DNA of 64,000 bases from Thioalbus denitrificans (lineage in GTDB: Bacteria; Pseudomonadota; Gammaproteobacteria; DSM-26407): the NCBI RefSeq assembly GCF_003337735.1, contig NZ_QPJY01000008.1:62001-126000 (forward strand), written 5' to 3'. Position 1 is the stretch's first letter. Each line of letters begins with the position of its first letter. The position numbers were made by a program, and so were the translations under genes. The notes under the pieces were generated by a model. That model did no database searches. It was not told the origin of the DNA and was given only the letters and a program-made list of their open reading frames with translations. Of this stretch, positions 7,309 to 18,663 are shown piece by piece.

Positions 7309-7364
7309 AGGCGGCCTTGTTCTTATGTTTGAATTGTTGGATGACGGCTGCAGAACCAGACGAC

Positions 7365-7410
7365 CACCCGGGCCGGGCTGGCAGTGGGCACTGCCAGCCC
7401 GGCCCGGGTG
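7365..7410. repeat. 46-base near-perfect palindrome (22-bp arms, 2-base centre)
   Basis: Arms 7365-7386 and 7389-7410 are perfectly complementary around GG at 7387-7388. It lies 57 bases upstream of the start of the 7093-7308 gene in the 475-base gene-free stretch 7309-7783. Neither strand shows a T-run after it, so a simple intrinsic terminator is unlikely; a protein-binding palindrome or a hairpin in the leader of the small-protein operon fits better. Confidence 0.8.
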
Positions 7411-7559
7411 AGTCGCAGGCGCATCCTTGTGCCACCCCGGGCCTCCTGCCCGTGGGTCACCGCGATGAACCGCAGTGCTGTCCTTGATCGCAACAATAGC
7501 CAAGCCGCCCTATAACGTCATTAGGCGATCGAAGCTGTACCCTGTAGGAAATGGATTAC

Positions 7560-7660
7560 ACGCCGATGGCCGGCCAAGGGCGGCGCGCTCGCGTGAAAGG
7601 AGGCCTGCCATTCCTGCGCAAGCGCCCTTTGCACCTGACCGCCCGGTGATCCGCTCAAGG
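7560..7660. repeat. Degenerate copy of the dispersed element at 59465-59730
   Basis: About 100 bases align with the inner right half of the element at 59465-59730. The best conserved block is GGCCTGCCATTCCTGCGCAA at 7606-7625 and again at 59648-59667, with further matches on both sides. The outer inverted ends seen in the other copy are not recognisable here, so this looks like a decayed or partial copy. The rest of 7309-7783, apart from the palindrome at 7365-7410, holds nothing I recognise. Confidence 0.65.
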
Positions 7661-7783
7661 CGCCTCCCGGCGTGAGACACGGCACTGGTCTTTGCGTGGA
7701 GCCCATGAACTGGGATACTCGGCCCCTGGGCTGGATGAAATCTACCGAATCGGAAACCGTTCCGGGCAGCGGAGGATGGGCAG

Positions 7784-8086
7784 ATGGGAAAGGAGTTGTT
7801 GGTCAAGGCGGTGCTTGCCTTTCTGGTGCTGATCTTCCTGGGCGACTGGATCGGCGACCTGGGCGAGAAGATCGCCGCCTCCATGGATGCCACCGCACGG
7901 ACCGTCCCCATCTACCGGGACCTGGCCAAGGCGGTCGTGGCGGCGGTAATTCTCGCCTTCCCGGTGTGGCGCCGTGACCTGCGCCCGACCCTGCGCTCCC
8001 GGCTCAACCGTTCTCAGCCGTCGCCGAATGCAAAGCGCCGCTCGCGGAAGAGCGACAGGCAGGCGTCCCCCACCGACGAGTCGTAG
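7784..8086 (+). CDS. Small membrane protein, unknown
   Basis: 100 residues with two hydrophobic segments (about residues 5-27, LLVKAVLAFLVLIFLGDWI, and 49-64, AVVAAVILAFPVW) and a strongly basic serine/arginine-rich C-terminal tail that would face the cytoplasm. A good ribosome-binding site (GGAGGATGGGCAG then ATG) supports translation. It stands alone, convergent with the GGDEF/EAL gene that ends at 8178. No family recognised. Confidence 0.65.
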   Translation: MGKELLVKAVLAFLVLIFLGDWIGDLGEKIAASMDATARTVPIYRDLAKAVVAAVILAFPVWRRDLRPTLRSRLNRSQPSPNAKRRSRKSDRQASPTDES

Positions 8087-8177
8087 CGCTCTCCCCGCCC
8101 GTCCGCAATCCCGCCCGGGACCACCCCACCCCGGGTGCCGCCCGGCGCGGCCGGCGGGAAGCCATCGCCACCACCGG

Positions 8178-11030
8178 TCAGGTCCCGGCCCGGTCGCGGT
8201 TGAACTTCCGCGCGGACAACCCCTGGCCCTGCAGCAGCACGTCGGTCATCTGCTGCGCGCTCAGGGGCCGGGCGAAGAAGTAACCCTGGGCGTAGTCGCA
8301 GCCGTAGCCGGCGAGCAGGTGAACCTGGTCCAGGTTCTCCACCCCCTCCGCCACCACCTTCAGGCCCAGGTTGTGTGCGAGGGTGACGATACCCTCCACG
8401 AGCGCCGCATCGTCATCGTCCAGGGCGATATCGTTGACGAAGCTCGCATCCACCTTCAGCAACTGGATCGGAAACCGCTTGAGGAAGCCCAGGGCGGAGT
8501 AGCCGGTGCCGAAATCGTCCAGCGCGATCTCCAGGCCCAGCTCATGGAGCCGGGTGAGAATCCCGGTGCTGCCCTCCACGTCGTCGATGAGGGTCCGCTC
8601 GGTCAGTTCCAGGCTGAGATCGGTCGGGGCGATGCCGCTGCTCGCGAGGATATCCTGGATGCGGTCCACCAGCTGCGGATCATAGAACTGGCGGGAGGAG
8701 ATGTTCACCGCCAGGCGTTGCACGGTGATGCCCTCCCGGCGCCAGGCGGAGAGCTGGCGACAGGCCTCGGTCAGCACCCACTCGCCCAGCCGGCCGATGA
8801 GGCCACAGTCCTCGGCCACCGGGATGAAGCGTCCCGGCGGCACCTCGCCGAGCTGCGGATGGGTCCAGCGCACCAGCGCCTCCATGCCCACCGGTTCCCG
8901 GGTCTCCAGGTCCACGATGGGCTGGTAGGCGAGGCGGAACTCGTCGCGTTCCAGCGCCCGGCGCATGCCGTGCTCGAGCGCCATGTGCTCGAGGGCGCGG
9001 GCGTTCATGTCCGAGGTGAAGAACTGGTAGCTGTTCCGGCCCCGCTCCTTGGCCCGGTACATGGCGGTGTCCGCGTTGCGCAGCAGGCCCTCGCCATCCC
9101 GGGCATCGTCCGGGTAGACGCTGATGCCGATGCTGGCGCTGGTGAACAGGTCGTGGCCGGTCACCTGGAAGGGGCGGCCGAATATCTCCATCACCTTGGC
9201 GGCCACCTGGGCGACGTCCTCCGCCTGGGCGATGTTGTCGACGATGACCGCGAACTCGTCGCCGCCGAGCCGGGCGACGGTATCCTCCGCCCGCAGCGAG
9301 CGCGACAACCCCCGCGCCACCGCCGCAAGCAGCTGATCGCCCATGGCGTGGCCGAGCGTGTCGTTGACCGACTTGAAGCGGTCCAGGTCGAGGAACAGGA
9401 CCGCCAGGCGGTGGCCCTCCCGGTTGGCATGGGCCAGGGCGTGCTCCAGCCGGTCCTGAAACAGCGTGCGGTTGGGAAGGCCGGTGATGGTGTCGAAATA
9501 GGCCAGGTGCCTGACCCGCTCCTCGGCGTCCCGCAGTTCGGTGAGATCCAGCAGGATGCAGGCGCACTGGCTCAGTGCGCCCGCATCATCGCGTACCGCG
9601 CTGACGGTCAGCCACTGGGGTGCGCGGGTACCGTCACCCCGCTGCACGCTGATTTCACCCTCCCATTGCCCCTTGCGCACGACCGCTTCGACGATCTCCC
9701 CGACGGGATCCTCTCTCCCGCCGATGGCGTCCACGAGGAACTCCCCGAACACCTTGTCGTTGAGCTGGGCGGGACTGCGGCCGACGAGCTGGGCGAAGGC
9801 GCCGTTCACCATCCGGATCACGCCCCGTTCGTCGATGATCACAATGCCCTCGCTGGTATTCGCGAAGACACTGGACGCCAGCCGCAACTGCTCCTCGGCC
9901 TGCTTGCGCTCGGTGATGTCCTGGGCCACCAGCACCAGCCCCCTCACCGTACCGTTCTCGTGCATCACCGAACCGGACAGGGAGACCGGAATCGGCCGTC
10001 CGCCGCGGCTCGTCAGCCAGGTCTCGAGGCCGTTGATGATCCCCTCGGAGAGCAGCCGCTGGGGGGGCACCTCCGGCGCCAGGTCGGTAACCTGCGAGCC
10101 GATGAGATCCTTCTCCGCCTGGCCGAGCAGCACGCACAGCGCCCGGTTCACCAGCGTCACCCGGCCCTCCGGCGTACTCACCAGCAGCGCGTTCTCCATG
10201 CTGCCGATGATGTTGTCCAGGTACTGCTTGGAGATGGTGGTGTGGGCCAGGTTCCGGCCCATCGCCTGGAAACTGCGCGCCAGGTCACCCAGCTCATCGT
10301 CCCGCCGGCTGTCCACCTCGATGTTGTAGTCGCCCTTGCCCACCCGGTCGGCCGATTGGGCCAGCTGCCGGATCGGACGCACGAGACGCCGCGTGACCCA
10401 CAGGGCGAGCCCCCCGCCCACGGCCATGAGGACAAGGGAGATCAGCGCCGTCGCCACGATATCGCGATAGAAGCTCGCATCCGCGACCGCGTCGATGCGG
10501 GAACGGCTGGCGTCGATCCCGGCGCGGATTCCCTCCAGGGAGAGAACCAGCCGCACCGCGCCCAGCGGACGTTCGCCGAGGAGAATGGGGGCATCCACCT
10601 CCAGGGTTTCGGCCAGTCGGCGCAGACGCATCTCCCCGGCGCGGAGGTCGTCCAGGGGGGAGTCGACGGGCCTGGAAAAGCCGGGTATGCCCTGCCGGCC
10701 GTCATGGAGCATCTGCCCGTCGGTGTCGTAGATCAGGGCATGGGCCACGTCGGGCTGCCCGGTCACCGTGACGAGCGTCTCCTGGATGGTCGCCATGTCG
10801 TAGTTGTAGACGGAGTTGACCAGGTCATCGGCCAGGAAACCGGCCAGCAGCCGGCCACGCTGCTCGAGCTGGGCGTAGAGCGCCTTCTCCAGCGCTTCCG
10901 CGCTGGACTGGCTGGCACTGTGCATCGCCTGCCCGAGCAGCAGCAGGTGGGCGGTGGTGATCGCCGCCGCGACCCCGGCGATGAGGGCCAGGAACGGGAT
11001 GGCGTAACGCCGGAACAGACCGCCCCTCAT
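8178..11030 (-). CDS. Membrane GGDEF/EAL protein with periplasmic sensor, HAMP and two PAS domains
   Basis: 950 residues. Order: N-terminal membrane helix (about 8-32), periplasmic domain (about 33-190), second helix (about 195-217), HAMP (about 218-270), two PAS domains (about 275-395 and 400-520), GGDEF (about 540-700) and EAL (about 705-940). The cyclase motif GGDEF (589-593) is intact, as is the inhibitory site RxxD (RAED) five residues before it. The phosphodiesterase motif EAL (717-719) and later acidic residues (LELTE, DDFGTGYS) are present. Both c-di-GMP synthesis and breakdown look chemically possible. Its ATG overlaps the stop of the PhnD-like gene (ATGA, 11027-11030), so a periplasmic binding protein is its probable signal partner. 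Confidence 0.92.
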   Translation of the reverse strand: MRGGLFRRYAIPFLALIAGVAAAITTAHLLLLGQAMHSASQSSAEALEKALYAQLEQRGRLLAGFLADDLVNSVYNYDMATIQETLVTVTGQPDVAHALIYDTDGQMLHDGRQGIPGFSRPVDSPLDDLRAGEMRLRRLAETLEVDAPILLGERPLGAVRLVLSLEGIRAGIDASRSRIDAVADASFYRDIVATALISLVLMAVGGGLALWVTRRLVRPIRQLAQSADRVGKGDYNIEVDSRRDDELGDLARSFQAMGRNLAHTTISKQYLDNIIGSMENALLVSTPEGRVTLVNRALCVLLGQAEKDLIGSQVTDLAPEVPPQRLLSEGIINGLETWLTSRGGRPIPVSLSGSVMHENGTVRGLVLVAQDITERKQAEEQLRLASSVFANTSEGIVIIDERGVIRMVNGAFAQLVGRSPAQLNDKVFGEFLVDAIGGREDPVGEIVEAVVRKGQWEGEISVQRGDGTRAPQWLTVSAVRDDAGALSQCACILLDLTELRDAEERVRHLAYFDTITGLPNRTLFQDRLEHALAHANREGHRLAVLFLDLDRFKSVNDTLGHAMGDQLLAAVARGLSRSLRAEDTVARLGGDEFAVIVDNIAQAEDVAQVAAKVMEIFGRPFQVTGHDLFTSASIGISVYPDDARDGEGLLRNADTAMYRAKERGRNSYQFFTSDMNARALEHMALEHGMRRALERDEFRLAYQPIVDLETREPVGMEALVRWTHPQLGEVPPGRFIPVAEDCGLIGRLGEWVLTEACRQLSAWRREGITVQRLAVNISSRQFYDPQLVDRIQDILASSGIAPTDLSLELTERTLIDDVEGSTGILTRLHELGLEIALDDFGTGYSALGFLKRFPIQLLKVDASFVNDIALDDDDAALVEGIVTLAHNLGLKVVAEGVENLDQVHLLAGYGCDYAQGYFFARPLSAQQMTDVLLQGQGLSARKFNRDRAGT

Positions 11031-11977
11031 GGTTCACCCCCGCCGTCGTCATCGTCCAGCACGCCGTGATAGGCCCTGATCGCCCCGCGCATCTCCCCGT
11101 CGATGCGCTCGAAGCGGCTGGTGCGCTGGTAGGACCAGAGCACCGAACGGGCTTCGGGATCCTCCGCCGCCGCCAGCAGCAGTTCGATCAGCCGCGTCCG
11201 GACCCGCGGGTCCAGGCTGCTCCGGACCAGTTCGATGGCCCGGGGCAGCGGCTCGCTGACATGGAACACCCGCAGCTCCCGGCGCAACGCCTCCGGGGTG
11301 TGGTCGGGATTGTTCCAGTCCAGATCGTTGTAGGCGGCGGCATCCACGAGCCCCTTGTAGACCCAGGTGGCCAGGTTGATTTCACCTCCGGCCAGCGCAT
11401 AGCCCACCTTGTCGGGCGGCGGCGCCACCCGCGGACCGGACAGGGGGACCGCCTCCAGGCCCTCGTCCCGGAGAATCATCAGGGGCTCGAAGAAGGCGGT
11501 GGTGGAGCCGGGGTCCTCGAGGCCGAGACGCCGTCCGCGCAGATCGGCAGGGGTACGGATGTCACTGTCCATGCGGGTGAAGAACAGGGTCCGGTACTCG
11601 GCAACGCCCTTTTTCCATTTTCTCAGAATCGACTCCGCCACCCCGGCCCGCTCGTAGAGCACCGCCGAGTAGAGGGTCTCCGTGACCCAGTCCACCCGCC
11701 CCTCGCGCAGGTACTGGATCATCTGCGCGTTGTCCCGCGCCATGAGGACTTCTCCACGGGTGATGCCGAGGTCCCCCATCCGCTCCGCCACGTAATCCAC
11801 CATCGGTTTCAGGCGCAGGTAGTGCTTGCGGGGATTGCTGCTGACCTTGCCGATGACCAGGGTGTGTGTGCGCACCGCCGGCTCCGCGCCCGTGGGCGCG
11901 CCGGTGGCCGCCGCGGTGCCCCCGCAAAGGAGGGCGCCGGCGGCCAGGCAGAGCCCGGTAAGCAAGCCTCGCATCAT
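11027..11977 (-). CDS. PhnD/phosphonate-type periplasmic binding protein
   Basis: 316 residues from the tandem ATGs at 11977/11974. The N-terminus is a Sec signal peptide (LLTGLCLAAGALLCGGTAAA); a longer reading to 12040 would overlap the porin gene and hide the signal. The body has the PhnD pattern: VIGKVSSNPRKHYLRLKPMVDYVAERM, then REGRVDWVTETLYSAVLYERAG, and LRGRRLGLEDPGSTTAFFEP, the anion-binding loop region. PhnD homologues bind phosphonate, phosphite or phosphate-like anions for ABC import, but no permease or ATPase is here. Instead it sits between a phosphate-type porin and a GGDEF/EAL receptor, which argues for sensing. Confidence 0.88.
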   Translation of the reverse strand: MMRGLLTGLCLAAGALLCGGTAAATGAPTGAEPAVRTHTLVIGKVSSNPRKHYLRLKPMVDYVAERMGDLGITRGEVLMARDNAQMIQYLREGRVDWVTETLYSAVLYERAGVAESILRKWKKGVAEYRTLFFTRMDSDIRTPADLRGRRLGLEDPGSTTAFFEPLMILRDEGLEAVPLSGPRVAPPPDKVGYALAGGEINLATWVYKGLVDAAAYNDLDWNNPDHTPEALRRELRVFHVSEPLPRAIELVRSSLDPRVRTRLIELLLAAAEDPEARSVLWSYQRTSRFERIDGEMRGAIRAYHGVLDDDDGGGEP

Positions 11978-11990
11978 CGCGGCGGGCGCC

Positions 11991-13388
11991 TCAGAAGTCG
12001 TACTGGGCGCGCAGCTGGAGAATCCGCGGGTCGTTGTCATTGCCGAAGGCGTCGGGCTCCGTGTCGACCCAGATATAGTTGGCCATCAGCCGCAACTGCG
12101 GATTGAGATACCAGTTCACGCCCAGGGTGAAGTTGCGGGCCACTCCCCCCTCGATATCCCCGTCCTCCAGGTCCAGCGCACTGTAGCGCAGACCGAACTC
12201 CCAGGCGCCGGGCCCGCCGCGGCCGAAGTTGCGCAGCGGCCGGATGCGGTCGAATTCGCCGTGGCGGGCGTCGTAGTTGCGCGACTCGCCGGTCAGGAAC
12301 CAGCTGGCGTAGGCATAGTAGCCGTCGAAGAGCAGGTCCTGCTGGCCGTCGCCCCGGGTCACGCTGGCCTGCAGATACTCCCCCTGGAGGGAGAAGGCGC
12401 CGAGCACGGCCGCCGCCTCCAGCCCCAGGCGGGCGGCCGCGTCCACCGCCACCAGGTCGTCGTCGGTGTCCAGCAGCCAGGTGTCGGCCACGTGGGATTC
12501 CGGCCGGGAGCGCAGGCGCAGGCGGCTGTCCTCGTAATCGGGGTTGGCCCCGTAGGTCCGGTAGTTCGCCGCCAGACCCAGGTGCAGCGCGCGCCGGGCA
12601 CCGGCGATGGGCGCATAGGTGGCCCGGAATCCGCCGCCCCAGCCCTCGTCGCCCACGTCGTTGTCGTCACCGTCGTCCAGCCCCTCGCCGAACAGGCCCA
12701 GGGCCAGGCTCCAGCTCTCTCCGTGGGTATCGTAGGCGACACCCACATTGCGCCCGGGCACCAGCGCGCCGGGCAGCGCCGGCTCCATGAAGGTGGTGTT
12801 CAGGGCGCTGGTCTGCTCCTCCAGGCCGAAGGGTTCCTTGATGGCGCCGACGCGGATCCGGCTCCGGTCGAAGCCGCTGTAGCCGAGCCAGGCATCACCC
12901 ACATTCGTGTCGTCACCGGCGAAATCCACCTCCAGCTGGTACTCCCAGTCGCCGTAGAACCACCCCTCCAGGCCCAGTCGGACGCTGCGCAGCTCCGCCG
13001 CGCTGCCGAGCCGATCCTTCACCTCGCCCTTCTTCACGTTGGGCACCGCGTCCTGGACCAGGGCCGCGTCGGTCATCACCCGCCCCTTGAGCCGCATCCC
13101 GAACTGGCCGTCCATGGTCTGCACGCCCACCCCGCCTTCCGTGGTGAGCTGGATGTCGGGTGCCGTGGTGATGCCGGGTGAGGACGGAGCGGAAGGCGCG
13201 GCGGCCGGCTCCTCCTCATCCATCGCCAGCACCAGCTGCTGGTACTGTTCCTCGGTGAGGGTGCCGTTGTCGCGCAGGATGGTGAGGAGCTGGAGCATCT
13301 GCTGGTTGCCCGCCGTGGCGATACCCGGGAACAGCAGTGCCACCAGCAGGGCCAGTCCCGGCCATGGGCGGAGGGAGCGTCGTTTCAT
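11991..13388 (-). CDS. OprO/OprP-type phosphate-selective porin
   Basis: 465 residues from the ATG at 13388, with GAGG seven to eight bases upstream; the earlier in-frame codon is TTG. Signal peptide MKRRSLRPWPGLALLVALLFPGIATA, then a short coiled-coil-like segment (QMLQLLTILRDNGTLTEEQYQQL) typical of this porin family, then repeated amphipathic beta strands, ending in the aromatic terminus RAQYDF expected of outer-membrane barrels. OprO/P porins form anion-selective trimeric channels, classically for phosphate or polyphosphate. The selectivity lysines cannot be checked by eye. The PhnD-like gene begins 13 bases after the stop. Confidence 0.88.
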   Translation of the reverse strand: MKRRSLRPWPGLALLVALLFPGIATAGNQQMLQLLTILRDNGTLTEEQYQQLVLAMDEEEPAAAPSAPSSPGITTAPDIQLTTEGGVGVQTMDGQFGMRLKGRVMTDAALVQDAVPNVKKGEVKDRLGSAAELRSVRLGLEGWFYGDWEYQLEVDFAGDDTNVGDAWLGYSGFDRSRIRVGAIKEPFGLEEQTSALNTTFMEPALPGALVPGRNVGVAYDTHGESWSLALGLFGEGLDDGDDNDVGDEGWGGGFRATYAPIAGARRALHLGLAANYRTYGANPDYEDSRLRLRSRPESHVADTWLLDTDDDLVAVDAAARLGLEAAAVLGAFSLQGEYLQASVTRGDGQQDLLFDGYYAYASWFLTGESRNYDARHGEFDRIRPLRNFGRGGPGAWEFGLRYSALDLEDGDIEGGVARNFTLGVNWYLNPQLRLMANYIWVDTEPDAFGNDNDPRILQLRAQYDF

Positions 13389-13745
13389 CACAGGCCTCGT
13401 CAATCAGGCGGGCGGCACGCCGTGATGGCTCTCCGGAGCGCACCGACCCGCGTTATAAATTCTTATTCCAGATACATTAGCGTTTCCCGCCATGAATTTC
13501 AGTGATCCAGATACCGTGTCTGGAACGAAATATCCAAGCATCCACAAGGGCTTCCCCCGCCCTGGCGCTGCGCGAGGCGGGCATGGCTGCTGCAGTGAGG
13601 AAGGGATTGAAGGTAGGCAGGAGGGGGGCATCAGCCCCATGGCCGGATCAGGCGGGAGAGTCCGGATGGGAGATTCGCCCTCCCTGCGCAGCCGCACCCG
13701 CCGCCGGGATACCGCCCGGGACGGCTGCAGCTGCGAGGAGATGTC
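13389..13745. other. Gene-free region upstream of the porin operon
   Basis: 357 bases between the porin start and the small protein at 13746. The part nearest the porin (13440-13500) is distinctly AT-richer (TTATAAATTCTTATTCC) and probably holds the minus-strand promoter, with TTATAA as a possible -10. I saw no phosphate-box sequence. Readings in the remainder lack ribosome-binding sites and look like GC-rich shadow frames. Confidence 0.5.
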
Positions 13746-13937
13746 TCAGTGGTGGGCGGGGATCCTCACCTCGCCATCGCGCAGCTTCTCCAACTGCCGG
13801 CGCGCCTCGAGCAGGCGCAGGCGGTAGATGGGACTCAGGCGCGTGGTATAGGCGAGGCGGTGTTCGAGATCGGCGATGAACGCCAGCAGCTCGTCCTCTC
13901 TGGGCAGGGTGGACTGCCCGGTTGCATATTCTTCCAT
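13746..13937 (-). CDS. Small helical protein, paralogue C of a three-member local family
   Basis: 63 residues with a strong ribosome-binding site (GGAGGACTATC then ATG). The sequence LIADLEHRLAYTTRL-like heptads followed by PIYRLRLLEARRQLEKLRDG matches the pattern of the two tandem proteins at 6870-7070 and 7093-7308: a helix, a short turn with [VI]Y, a second helix ending in L-x-DG. It is divergent from the rhodanese gene at 14162. No known domain. All three paralogues are under 75 residues, lack signal peptides and lie near a sulfur-transfer gene. Confidence 0.65.
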   Translation of the reverse strand: MEEYATGQSTLPREDELLAFIADLEHRLAYTTRLSPIYRLRLLEARRQLEKLRDGEVRIPAHH

Positions 13938-14659: not shown

Positions 14660-14765
14660 ACGGGGGGCACCAGACCCCGCCGCGCAGACCCGCGGCCATT
14701 CACCCCCCCGCCGCCGACAGGATAGAATGAATTATTCCGTTCAGCTGCCAGGGGACACCCGCAAC

Positions 14766-15248
14766 ATGCCCTCCTTCGACGTGGTATCCGAAGTCAATCT
14801 CCACGAGCTCACCAACGCGGTGGACCAGACCAACCGCGAGGTGGGCAACCGCTTCGACTTCAAGGGCAGCAACGCCCGGGTGGAGCAGAGCGAGAACGTC
14901 CTCACCCTCACCGCCGAGTCGGAGTTCCAGGTGGACCAGATCCGCGACATCCTCATAACCCGCATGGCCAAGCGCGACATCGACACCGGCTGCCTCGACG
15001 TGGGCGAGACCAGCACCGTGGGCAGGGAGGCGCGGCAGGTGATCACCGCCCGCCAGGGCATCGACAAGGAGCTGGCCAAGAAGATCGTCAAGCGGGTCAA
15101 GGACAGCAAGCTCAAGGTCCAGGCCGCGGTCCAGGGCGAGCAGGTGCGCATCACCGGCAAGAAGCGCGACGACCTGCAGGCGGTCATGGCCGAAATCCGC
15201 CAGGCCGGCTACGACCTGCCCCTGCAGTTCACCAACTTCCGCGACTGA
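14766..15248 (+). CDS. yajQ: YajQ-family nucleotide (c-di-GMP)-binding protein
   Basis: 160 residues, matching the family's 160-165. Start at 14766 (MPSFDVVSEVNLHELTNAVDQ), the usual YajQ N-terminus; an in-frame ATG at 14727 would add 13 unrelated residues. Family motifs NREVGNRFDFKGS and RITGKKRDDLQAVMA are present. YajQ proteins bind nucleotides, and the Xanthomonas homologue binds c-di-GMP and acts on transcription; whether this copy does so is inference. It is interesting that a GGDEF/EAL enzyme is encoded 3.7 kb away, but they are in separate operons. Confidence 0.93.
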   Translation: MPSFDVVSEVNLHELTNAVDQTNREVGNRFDFKGSNARVEQSENVLTLTAESEFQVDQIRDILITRMAKRDIDTGCLDVGETSTVGREARQVITARQGIDKELAKKIVKRVKDSKLKVQAAVQGEQVRITGKKRDDLQAVMAEIRQAGYDLPLQFTNFRD

Positions 15249-17790: not shown

Positions 17791-18663
17791 TCAGACAATC
17801 TTCTGCAGGGCGTACTCCAGGATGCCCTCGGCGCCGGCGGCGGCCAGGCGGGGGACGAGGTCGCGGACCTGGTCCTTGTCGACGACGGTCTCCACCGCGG
17901 CCCAGTCGGGGTCGAACAGGGGATTGACGGTGGGGGCATGGAGGCTCGGCAGCAGGCCCATGAGCTCGTCGAGGCGCGCAGCGGGGACGTTCATCTTCAG
18001 CACCACCTTGTGGCGGGCCTTGAGGGCGGACTGCAGCAGCAGGGCGATCTGGTCGATCTTGGCCCGCTTCCAGGGGTCGGCCAGAGCCTCGCGATTAGCG
18101 ATGAGGCGGGTGTGGGTATGGAGCAGATCGCAGACGATGCGCAGGCCGTGGGCGCGGATGGTGCTGCCGGTCTCGGTGATCTCCACCACCGCGTCCACCA
18201 GCCCCTCCACCGCCTTGGCCTCGGTGGCGCCCCAGGAGAACTCCACCTTCGCATCGATGCCGCGCTCGGCCAGGTAGCGGCGGGTGAAGCCCACCAGCTC
18301 GGTGGCGACGCGCCTGCCCTGCAGATCCGCCACCGAGCGGATGGGGGAGTCGTTGGGCACCACCAGCACCCAGCGGCAGGGCTGGTCCGAGCTCTTGGAG
18401 TATTCCAGCGAGCAGATCTCCTCCACCTCCGAACCGTGCTCCAGGATCCAGTCCAGCCCGGTGAGCCCGAGATCCAGGGTGCCGTTCTCCACGTAGGGCG
18501 CCATCTCCTGGGCCCGCACCAGGGCGCAGCGCAGTTCCGGGTCGTCCACCGTGGGGAAGTAGTTGCGCGAGCGCGGCGTGATATGCCAGCCCGCCTGCCG
18601 GAACAGCGCCAGCGTCGCCTCCTCCAGGCTGCCCTTCGGAATGCCGATCTTGAGCTGCTTCAT
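17791..18663 (-). CDS. hisG: ATP phosphoribosyltransferase, long form
   Basis: 290 residues, the long (HisGL) form with a C-terminal ACT-like regulatory domain (about 215-290), which works without HisZ. It catalyses the first step of histidine synthesis, joining ATP and PRPP. Recognisable segments are KIGIPKGSLEEATL, the LGLTGLDWILE region and the PRPP-binding loop VDAVVEITETGSTIRAHGL. The gene is isolated from other his genes in this window and is bordered on both sides by 9-nt-unit repeat arrays. The ATG at 18663 is the family start; only a weak purine tract precedes it. Confidence 0.93.
   Translation of the reverse strand: MKQLKIGIPKGSLEEATLALFRQAGWHITPRSRNYFPTVDDPELRCALVRAQEMAPYVENGTLDLGLTGLDWILEHGSEVEEICSLEYSKSSDQPCRWVLVVPNDSPIRSVADLQGRRVATELVGFTRRYLAERGIDAKVEFSWGATEAKAVEGLVDAVVEITETGSTIRAHGLRIVCDLLHTHTRLIANREALADPWKRAKIDQIALLLQSALKARHKVVLKMNVPAARLDELMGLLPSLHAPTVNPLFDPDWAAVETVVDKDQVRDLVPRLAAAGAEGILEYALQKIV

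Follow-up and report, generated by a model that had tools for sequence, protein, structure and literature searches.

Genes and predicted proteins at the Thioalbus denitrificans locus

The DNA that we analysed, referred to below as the window, comprises 64,000 nt of Thioalbus denitrificans (GCF_003337735.1, NZ_QPJY01000008.1, forward strand 62,001-126,000), and on its minus strand genes for a porin, a PhnD-like binding protein (SBP) and a membrane GGDEF-EAL receptor follow one another in one direction. The porin gene (13388..11991 (-), 465 aa counted from ATG) belongs to the Porin_O_P (OprP/OprO) family (Pfam, 1.9e-71) and ends 13 bases before the ATG of the SBP gene (11977..11027 (-), 316 aa), which encodes a type II PBP matched by Pfam Phosphonate-bd at 4.9e-37. 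The receptor gene (11030..8178 (-), 950 aa) starts within an ATGA stop/start overlap (11027..11030 (-)), in which its ATG overlaps the SBP TGA. This tight minus-strand order was found just as a preliminary description of the locus, made from the sequence alone, had given it. Scanning the region upstream of the operon (13389..13900 (-)) against a shuffled background revealed no Pho box above background within 0.5 kb of the porin gene, the best site having 9/14 matches compared with a shuffled mean maximum of 8.6.

A YajQ-like gene, from a family that includes c-di-GMP-binding proteins, lies ~1.3 kb from the operon (window 14727-15248 (+)); we rejected it as part of the sensor unit, its neighbourhood with the operon being common only to the sister genome. 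A weak second PhnD match (window 17791-18663 (-)) was dropped, as it reads by eye as HisG, a protein of histidine synthesis with a PBP-like fold.

The porin has a signal peptide and an N-terminal leader ahead of its barrel, aligns with OprP over the full barrel (2o4v, 7e-34), also matches OprO, and is the only Porin_O_P copy in the T. denitrificans genome. We compared it, in an alignment including 8 other triad porins, with the residues that form the charged ladder and constriction of OprP, namely R34, R59, R60, K121, R218, R220, R226, R242, K313 and K323. Arg was kept at 34, 59, 218 and 220 and replaced K323, while the other ladder positions held S60, E121, A226, W242 and D313; because the ladder is kept only in part, phosphate selectivity of the porin stays putative. 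The operon's porin has its Pfam family and barrel alignment in common with OprP/OprO of Pseudomonas aeruginosa, but differs from them in its partial Arg/Lys ladder, in having no Pho box found and in being tied to a sensor operon.

The SBP carries an N-terminal signal peptide, and its mature chain contains no cysteine. Its best solved relative was PDB 5ub3 (2.8e-63 for the single sequence, 1.2e-112 for the profile), far ahead of PtxB, ArrX and PhnD; this entry is XAC2383 of Xanthomonas citri (PMC10942540), with which the SBP has 40% identity. Among the XAC2383 structures (PDB 5ub3, 5ub4, 5ub6, 5ub7), 5ub3 holds chloride and 5ub7 holds ATP. An AlphaFold2 model of the SBP (pLDDT 88) matched 5ub3 with a Z of 36.1 (rmsd 1.8, 278 aligned) and ATP-bound 5ub7 with a Z of 35.0; the next fold match after XAC2383 was ArrX (Z 25.4), and the PhnD, PtxB and HtxB structures scored Z 21-23. 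In the pocket, for which the AioX residues were taken from PMC5908839, the SBP family keeps the Ser/Thr turn (GSTT) and the second Tyr of PhnD/AioX, with the first Tyr and the His replaced. The SBP has superfamily, fold, turn and second Tyr in common with PhnD, PtxB and HtxB, but lacks their first Tyr and His and has no permease or ATPase nearby. AioX binds arsenite via Cys106 (PMC5908839), and the cysteine-free mature SBP argues against an AioX-like arsenite site. The homologous XAC2383, which has been crystallized with ATP among other states, makes a phosphate-containing anion our best guess for the ligand. The specificity for phosphate, phosphonate or phosphite inferred in the preliminary description stays putative, given the partial ladder of the porin and the replaced Tyr and His of the SBP pocket.

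For the receptor, Pfam recognized HAMP, two PAS, GGDEF (9.7e-53) and EAL (9e-78) domains, and the motifs are intact (RxxD I-site and GGDEF at 580-593, EAL at 717, NIS at 776, DDFGTGYS at 838, EGVE at 895). Its periplasmic part (approximately residues 45-177), between two long helices, is single-Cache-like; Pfam gave a weak CHASE8 match below the cut-off for the window receptor (3.8e-5) and somewhat better sCache_3_2 matches in relatives. In the AlphaFold2 model (pLDDT 88.5), this part aligned with WalK (Z 16.7, rmsd 2.2, 132 aligned) and CitA (Z 15.3, rmsd 2.6, 120 aligned); as modelled, the periplasmic domain is a single-Cache/PAS sensor fold. N72, Y75, D110, G111 and G157 are invariant and H109 nearly so in a 49-row alignment, and the receptors conserve NPxYxxD, HDG, G119, P148 and G157. 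The earlier account of a membrane protein with a periplasmic domain and intact GGDEF, I-site and EAL thus held, with a Cache-like domain as its periplasmic part.

Gene order and receptor outputs across genomes

A homologue scan of 84,980 species genomes led to 80 loci, in which the neighbours of the SBP gene were read by tblastn with the window proteins, later genomes being added to the initial loci. In practically every locus whose contig reached far enough, tblastn found the SBP gene followed by a receptor of the same layout, with an SBP-receptor gap of mostly -4 or -1 (gap list of 78 loci). The preliminary description had made its proposal depend on relatives keeping the three-gene order, and the order porin-SBP-receptor was found in at least 20 genomes from four phyla: the window, G001/L047, L048, L049 (on the same contig as L172), L050, L051, L052, L053, L054, L173, L174, L177, L182, L183, L184, L185, L186, L187, L188 and L189. 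Judged by record title and by the phylum sampled, these units fall in Gammaproteobacteria, Acidobacteria (L053), Candidatus Eisenbacteria (L050) and, for L177, the phylum to which the Desulfosarcinaceae genome of L055 belongs. The family is sparse: it was present in 8 of 369 genomes of the class, in 1 of 297 from the L053 phylum and in 24 of 210 from the L054 order.

Relatives carry only 1-3 Porin_O_P genes per genome, making repeated chance adjacency negligible. On the SBP tree, porin linkage needs 2 changes compared with 13 for shuffled labels, and the window SBP lies in a separate, porin-linked part of the tree, apart from XAC2383. The SBP-receptor pair has no adjoining porin in the Xanthomonas/Stenotrophomonas/Lysobacter clade (L056-L126), in L190 and L191, or in L055, L176 and L178, the last three being Thermodesulfobacteriota. 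Its occurrence in this form in the Xanthomonas-type clade and these three genomes indicated that the principle does not depend on the pore.

Three loci deserve separate mention. In L039, where tblastn of the locus found no receptor near the SBP relative, the relative itself (7340-8250 (-)) is split over two reading frames, possibly as a decayed gene. Likewise, tblastn found no receptor near the distant SBP relative of L040 (26%), which a Porin_O_P-like gene directly follows rather than precedes (7789-9460 (+)); the two may be an SBP-porin pairing of independent origin. A Stenotrophomonas-like SBP-receptor locus was also present in L083, a record labelled Bacillus subtilis that is probably contaminated or mislabelled.

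Receptor outputs varied among the relatives. Pfam assigned GGDEF-EAL outputs to L048, L049 and L051, HisKA-HATPase-REC to L050 and L053, and PAS-HisKA-HATPase to L055; kinase outputs were also indicated in L173, L176 and L177, with outputs throughout L173-L191 assigned from tblastn alone. Two loci (L052:8909-13876 and L054:9038-14035) encode single receptors of ~1,660 aa, in which the periplasmic domain and HAMP are followed by HisKA-HATPase-REC-REC-Hpt-REC-PAS-GGDEF-EAL; each of these fused phosphorelay receptors has three receivers, and an HDOD gene lies directly 3'. Kinase versus c-di-GMP output needs 5 changes on the SBP tree, in which several deep forks are poorly resolved and which gives no direction of output change. 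With 2 changes for porin linkage against these 5, the porin-SBP-Cache input unit was kept while outputs changed and is clearly the more stable of the two. The c-di-GMP output described earlier fits the window operon, with its intact GGDEF-EAL, but is not the sole output, since in relatives this input cassette is coupled to histidine kinases and phosphorelays as well.

A proposed three-part sensor and its alternatives

In the work of Teixeira et al. 2018 (JBC 293:10767), XAC2383 reportedly binds the periplasmic Cache domain of the diguanylate cyclase XAC2382; XAC2383 is said to prefer phosphate-containing anions, and its liganded form was reportedly proposed to inhibit XAC2382. The window operon shares with this pair its SBP subfamily, the lack of an ABC partner, and the linkage of the SBP gene to a gene for a membrane receptor that has a periplasmic Cache domain and GGDEF, its SBP gene lying directly upstream of a receptor with Cache, HAMP and a GGDEF domain with catalytic motif. 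It differs in being headed by a porin gene and in the two PAS domains and EAL of its receptor.

NspS-MbaA of Vibrio cholerae, the precedent given in the preliminary description, likewise has an SBP gene upstream of a GGDEF-EAL receptor, but MbaA carries SGDEF/EVL and the system has no porin. NspS binds polyamines and comes from a different SBP family, whereas a domain search placed the window SBP in the Phosphonate-bd family and matched no polyamine (PotD-like) family. NspS sets the balance of MbaA's two enzyme activities, an example of a bifunctional enzyme that can be switched by its SBP (PMC8079147). This precedent stands as an analogy but not as the closest one: by sequence and fold the window SBP is homologous to XAC2383 (40%, Z 36), making XAC2383-XAC2382 the closer precedent. 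AioX, ArxX and ArrX with their sensor kinases, which sense arsenic oxyanions, also use PhnD-like SBPs in signalling, and histidine kinases are likewise the output of some relatives of the window operon; unlike AioX, however, the window SBP has no counterpart of Cys106, and the window output is c-di-GMP.

We propose that the operon encodes a three-part sensor reaching from the outer membrane to the cytoplasm, in which an anion enters through the porin, is bound by the SBP and, in complex with it, sets the GGDEF/EAL balance of the receptor, and we give this reading a probability of about 70%. A small anionic solute, probably one that contains phosphate, would pass the porin and be captured in the periplasm by the SBP, which would serve the receptor rather than a transporter. 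The liganded (or unliganded) SBP would then dock on the single-Cache periplasmic domain, and the signal would travel along the second transmembrane helix and on via the HAMP and PAS domains, shifting the receptor between GGDEF synthesis and EAL breakdown of c-di-GMP. In this scheme, we infer the SBP-receptor contact, the ligand, the sign of the effect and the feeding of the SBP by the porin.

Alternatively, SBP and receptor might form a sensor like that of X. citri, the porin being merely a co-regulated pore for anion uptake that raises general outer-membrane permeability while the operon is expressed and plays no dedicated part in signal input. Such a role would fit pairs without an adjoining porin in the whole Xanthomonas-type clade and in L055, L176 and L178, as well as the partly kept OprP ladder, but we consider it unlikely, given that the porin gene immediately precedes the SBP gene across a large section of the SBP tree and in four phyla, stays while outputs change, and is the sole member of its family in T. 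denitrificans.

Rather than responding to the SBP, the receptor might sense the ligand directly via its Cache domain, like CitA or DctB, with the SBP only buffering or concentrating the ligand. The predicted periplasmic fold is indeed nearest to the sensor domains of WalK and CitA, and CitA and DcuS bind ligands directly; the joining of SBP and receptor in all lineages and with all outputs, together with the reported interaction of the X. citri pair, makes this explanation quite improbable.

No ABC gene adjoins the SBP gene, the nearest permease on the same contig being ~60 kb off. The T. denitrificans genome has five PhnD-like proteins above the cut-off; one such gene, on contig C4, adjoins a permease and ATPases resembling a phosphonate cluster, and it is this gene, not the operon's SBP, that is the ABC-linked PhnD of the genome. 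That the SBP is a phosphate/phosphonate/phosphite transport protein with an ABC permease elsewhere, leaving the GGDEF-EAL gene as a bystander, has in its favour a Pfam family whose classical members are ABC components, but is hardly credible for a protein that reaches 58 bits (cut-off for PhnD, 261) and 80 (cut-off for the transporter subfamily, 112), has no adjoining permease, is followed by a receptor in nearly all readable loci, and is not the ABC-linked PhnD of its genome. The preliminary description had noted an SBP without an ABC partner and had named a pairing permease as evidence to the contrary; no permease pairs with it. Three other PhnD-like proteins of T. denitrificans are sensors by context; one of the three, on contig C18, adjoins a histidine kinase.

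The other two of these lie on contig C1. At 854 kb, downstream of a PhnD-like SBP (L043:6926-11020 (+)), come genes for a Cache histidine kinase and a response regulator of the sigma-54 type. At 4 kb, a PhnD-like domain is fused to PAS, GAF and HD-GYP in one protein (L044:1643-5419 (-)), a one-piece SBP wired to a probable c-di-GMP phosphodiesterase.

Returning to the three-part sensor, the conserved gene order, the SBP without an ABC partner, the receptor Cache domain and the failure of either contrary finding named in the preliminary description (a pairing permease or loss of gene order) to appear together make porin, SBP and c-di-GMP enzyme well supported as a sensing unit. The unit linking a porin to c-di-GMP proposed in that description is thus upheld by order, ABC context and Cache domain, and is revised in its precedent, its ligand specificity and c-di-GMP as its sole output.

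Novelty and meaning of the porin-linked unit

Few systems are known with binding-protein-driven control of c-di-GMP, and we know of none of this kind in which a porin is a constant partner. The principle of SBP-to-c-di-GMP signalling and the SBP family are themselves already known. What goes beyond the X. citri precedent is that a porin gene is the constant third member and that a single input unit has repeatedly had its output exchanged, part of which may be noted already; neither a unit of porin, SBP and cyclase nor output swapping was found in the literature searched, outside of which lay the text of Teixeira et al. 2018. The 2018 work on the X. citri pair appears in the reference list of PMC10380989 as number 16.

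A broader reading, which we hold possible but on balance doubtful, is that of a widespread modular three-component sensor, in which the porin, as a dedicated part of the sensor, would select a phosphorylated solute and the conserved porin-SBP-Cache input would have been linked again and again, in different phyla, to c-di-GMP enzymes, kinases and fused phosphorelays. As part of the same tentative reading, the solutes might be polyphosphate, pyrophosphate, nucleotides such as extracellular ATP, or sugar phosphates. If the conserved porin-SBP-receptor unit is what it appears to be, it would become possible to test whether sensing includes a tuning of outer-membrane permeability, and the natural swaps between c-di-GMP enzyme, kinase and phosphorelay offer ready comparisons of one input with different outputs.
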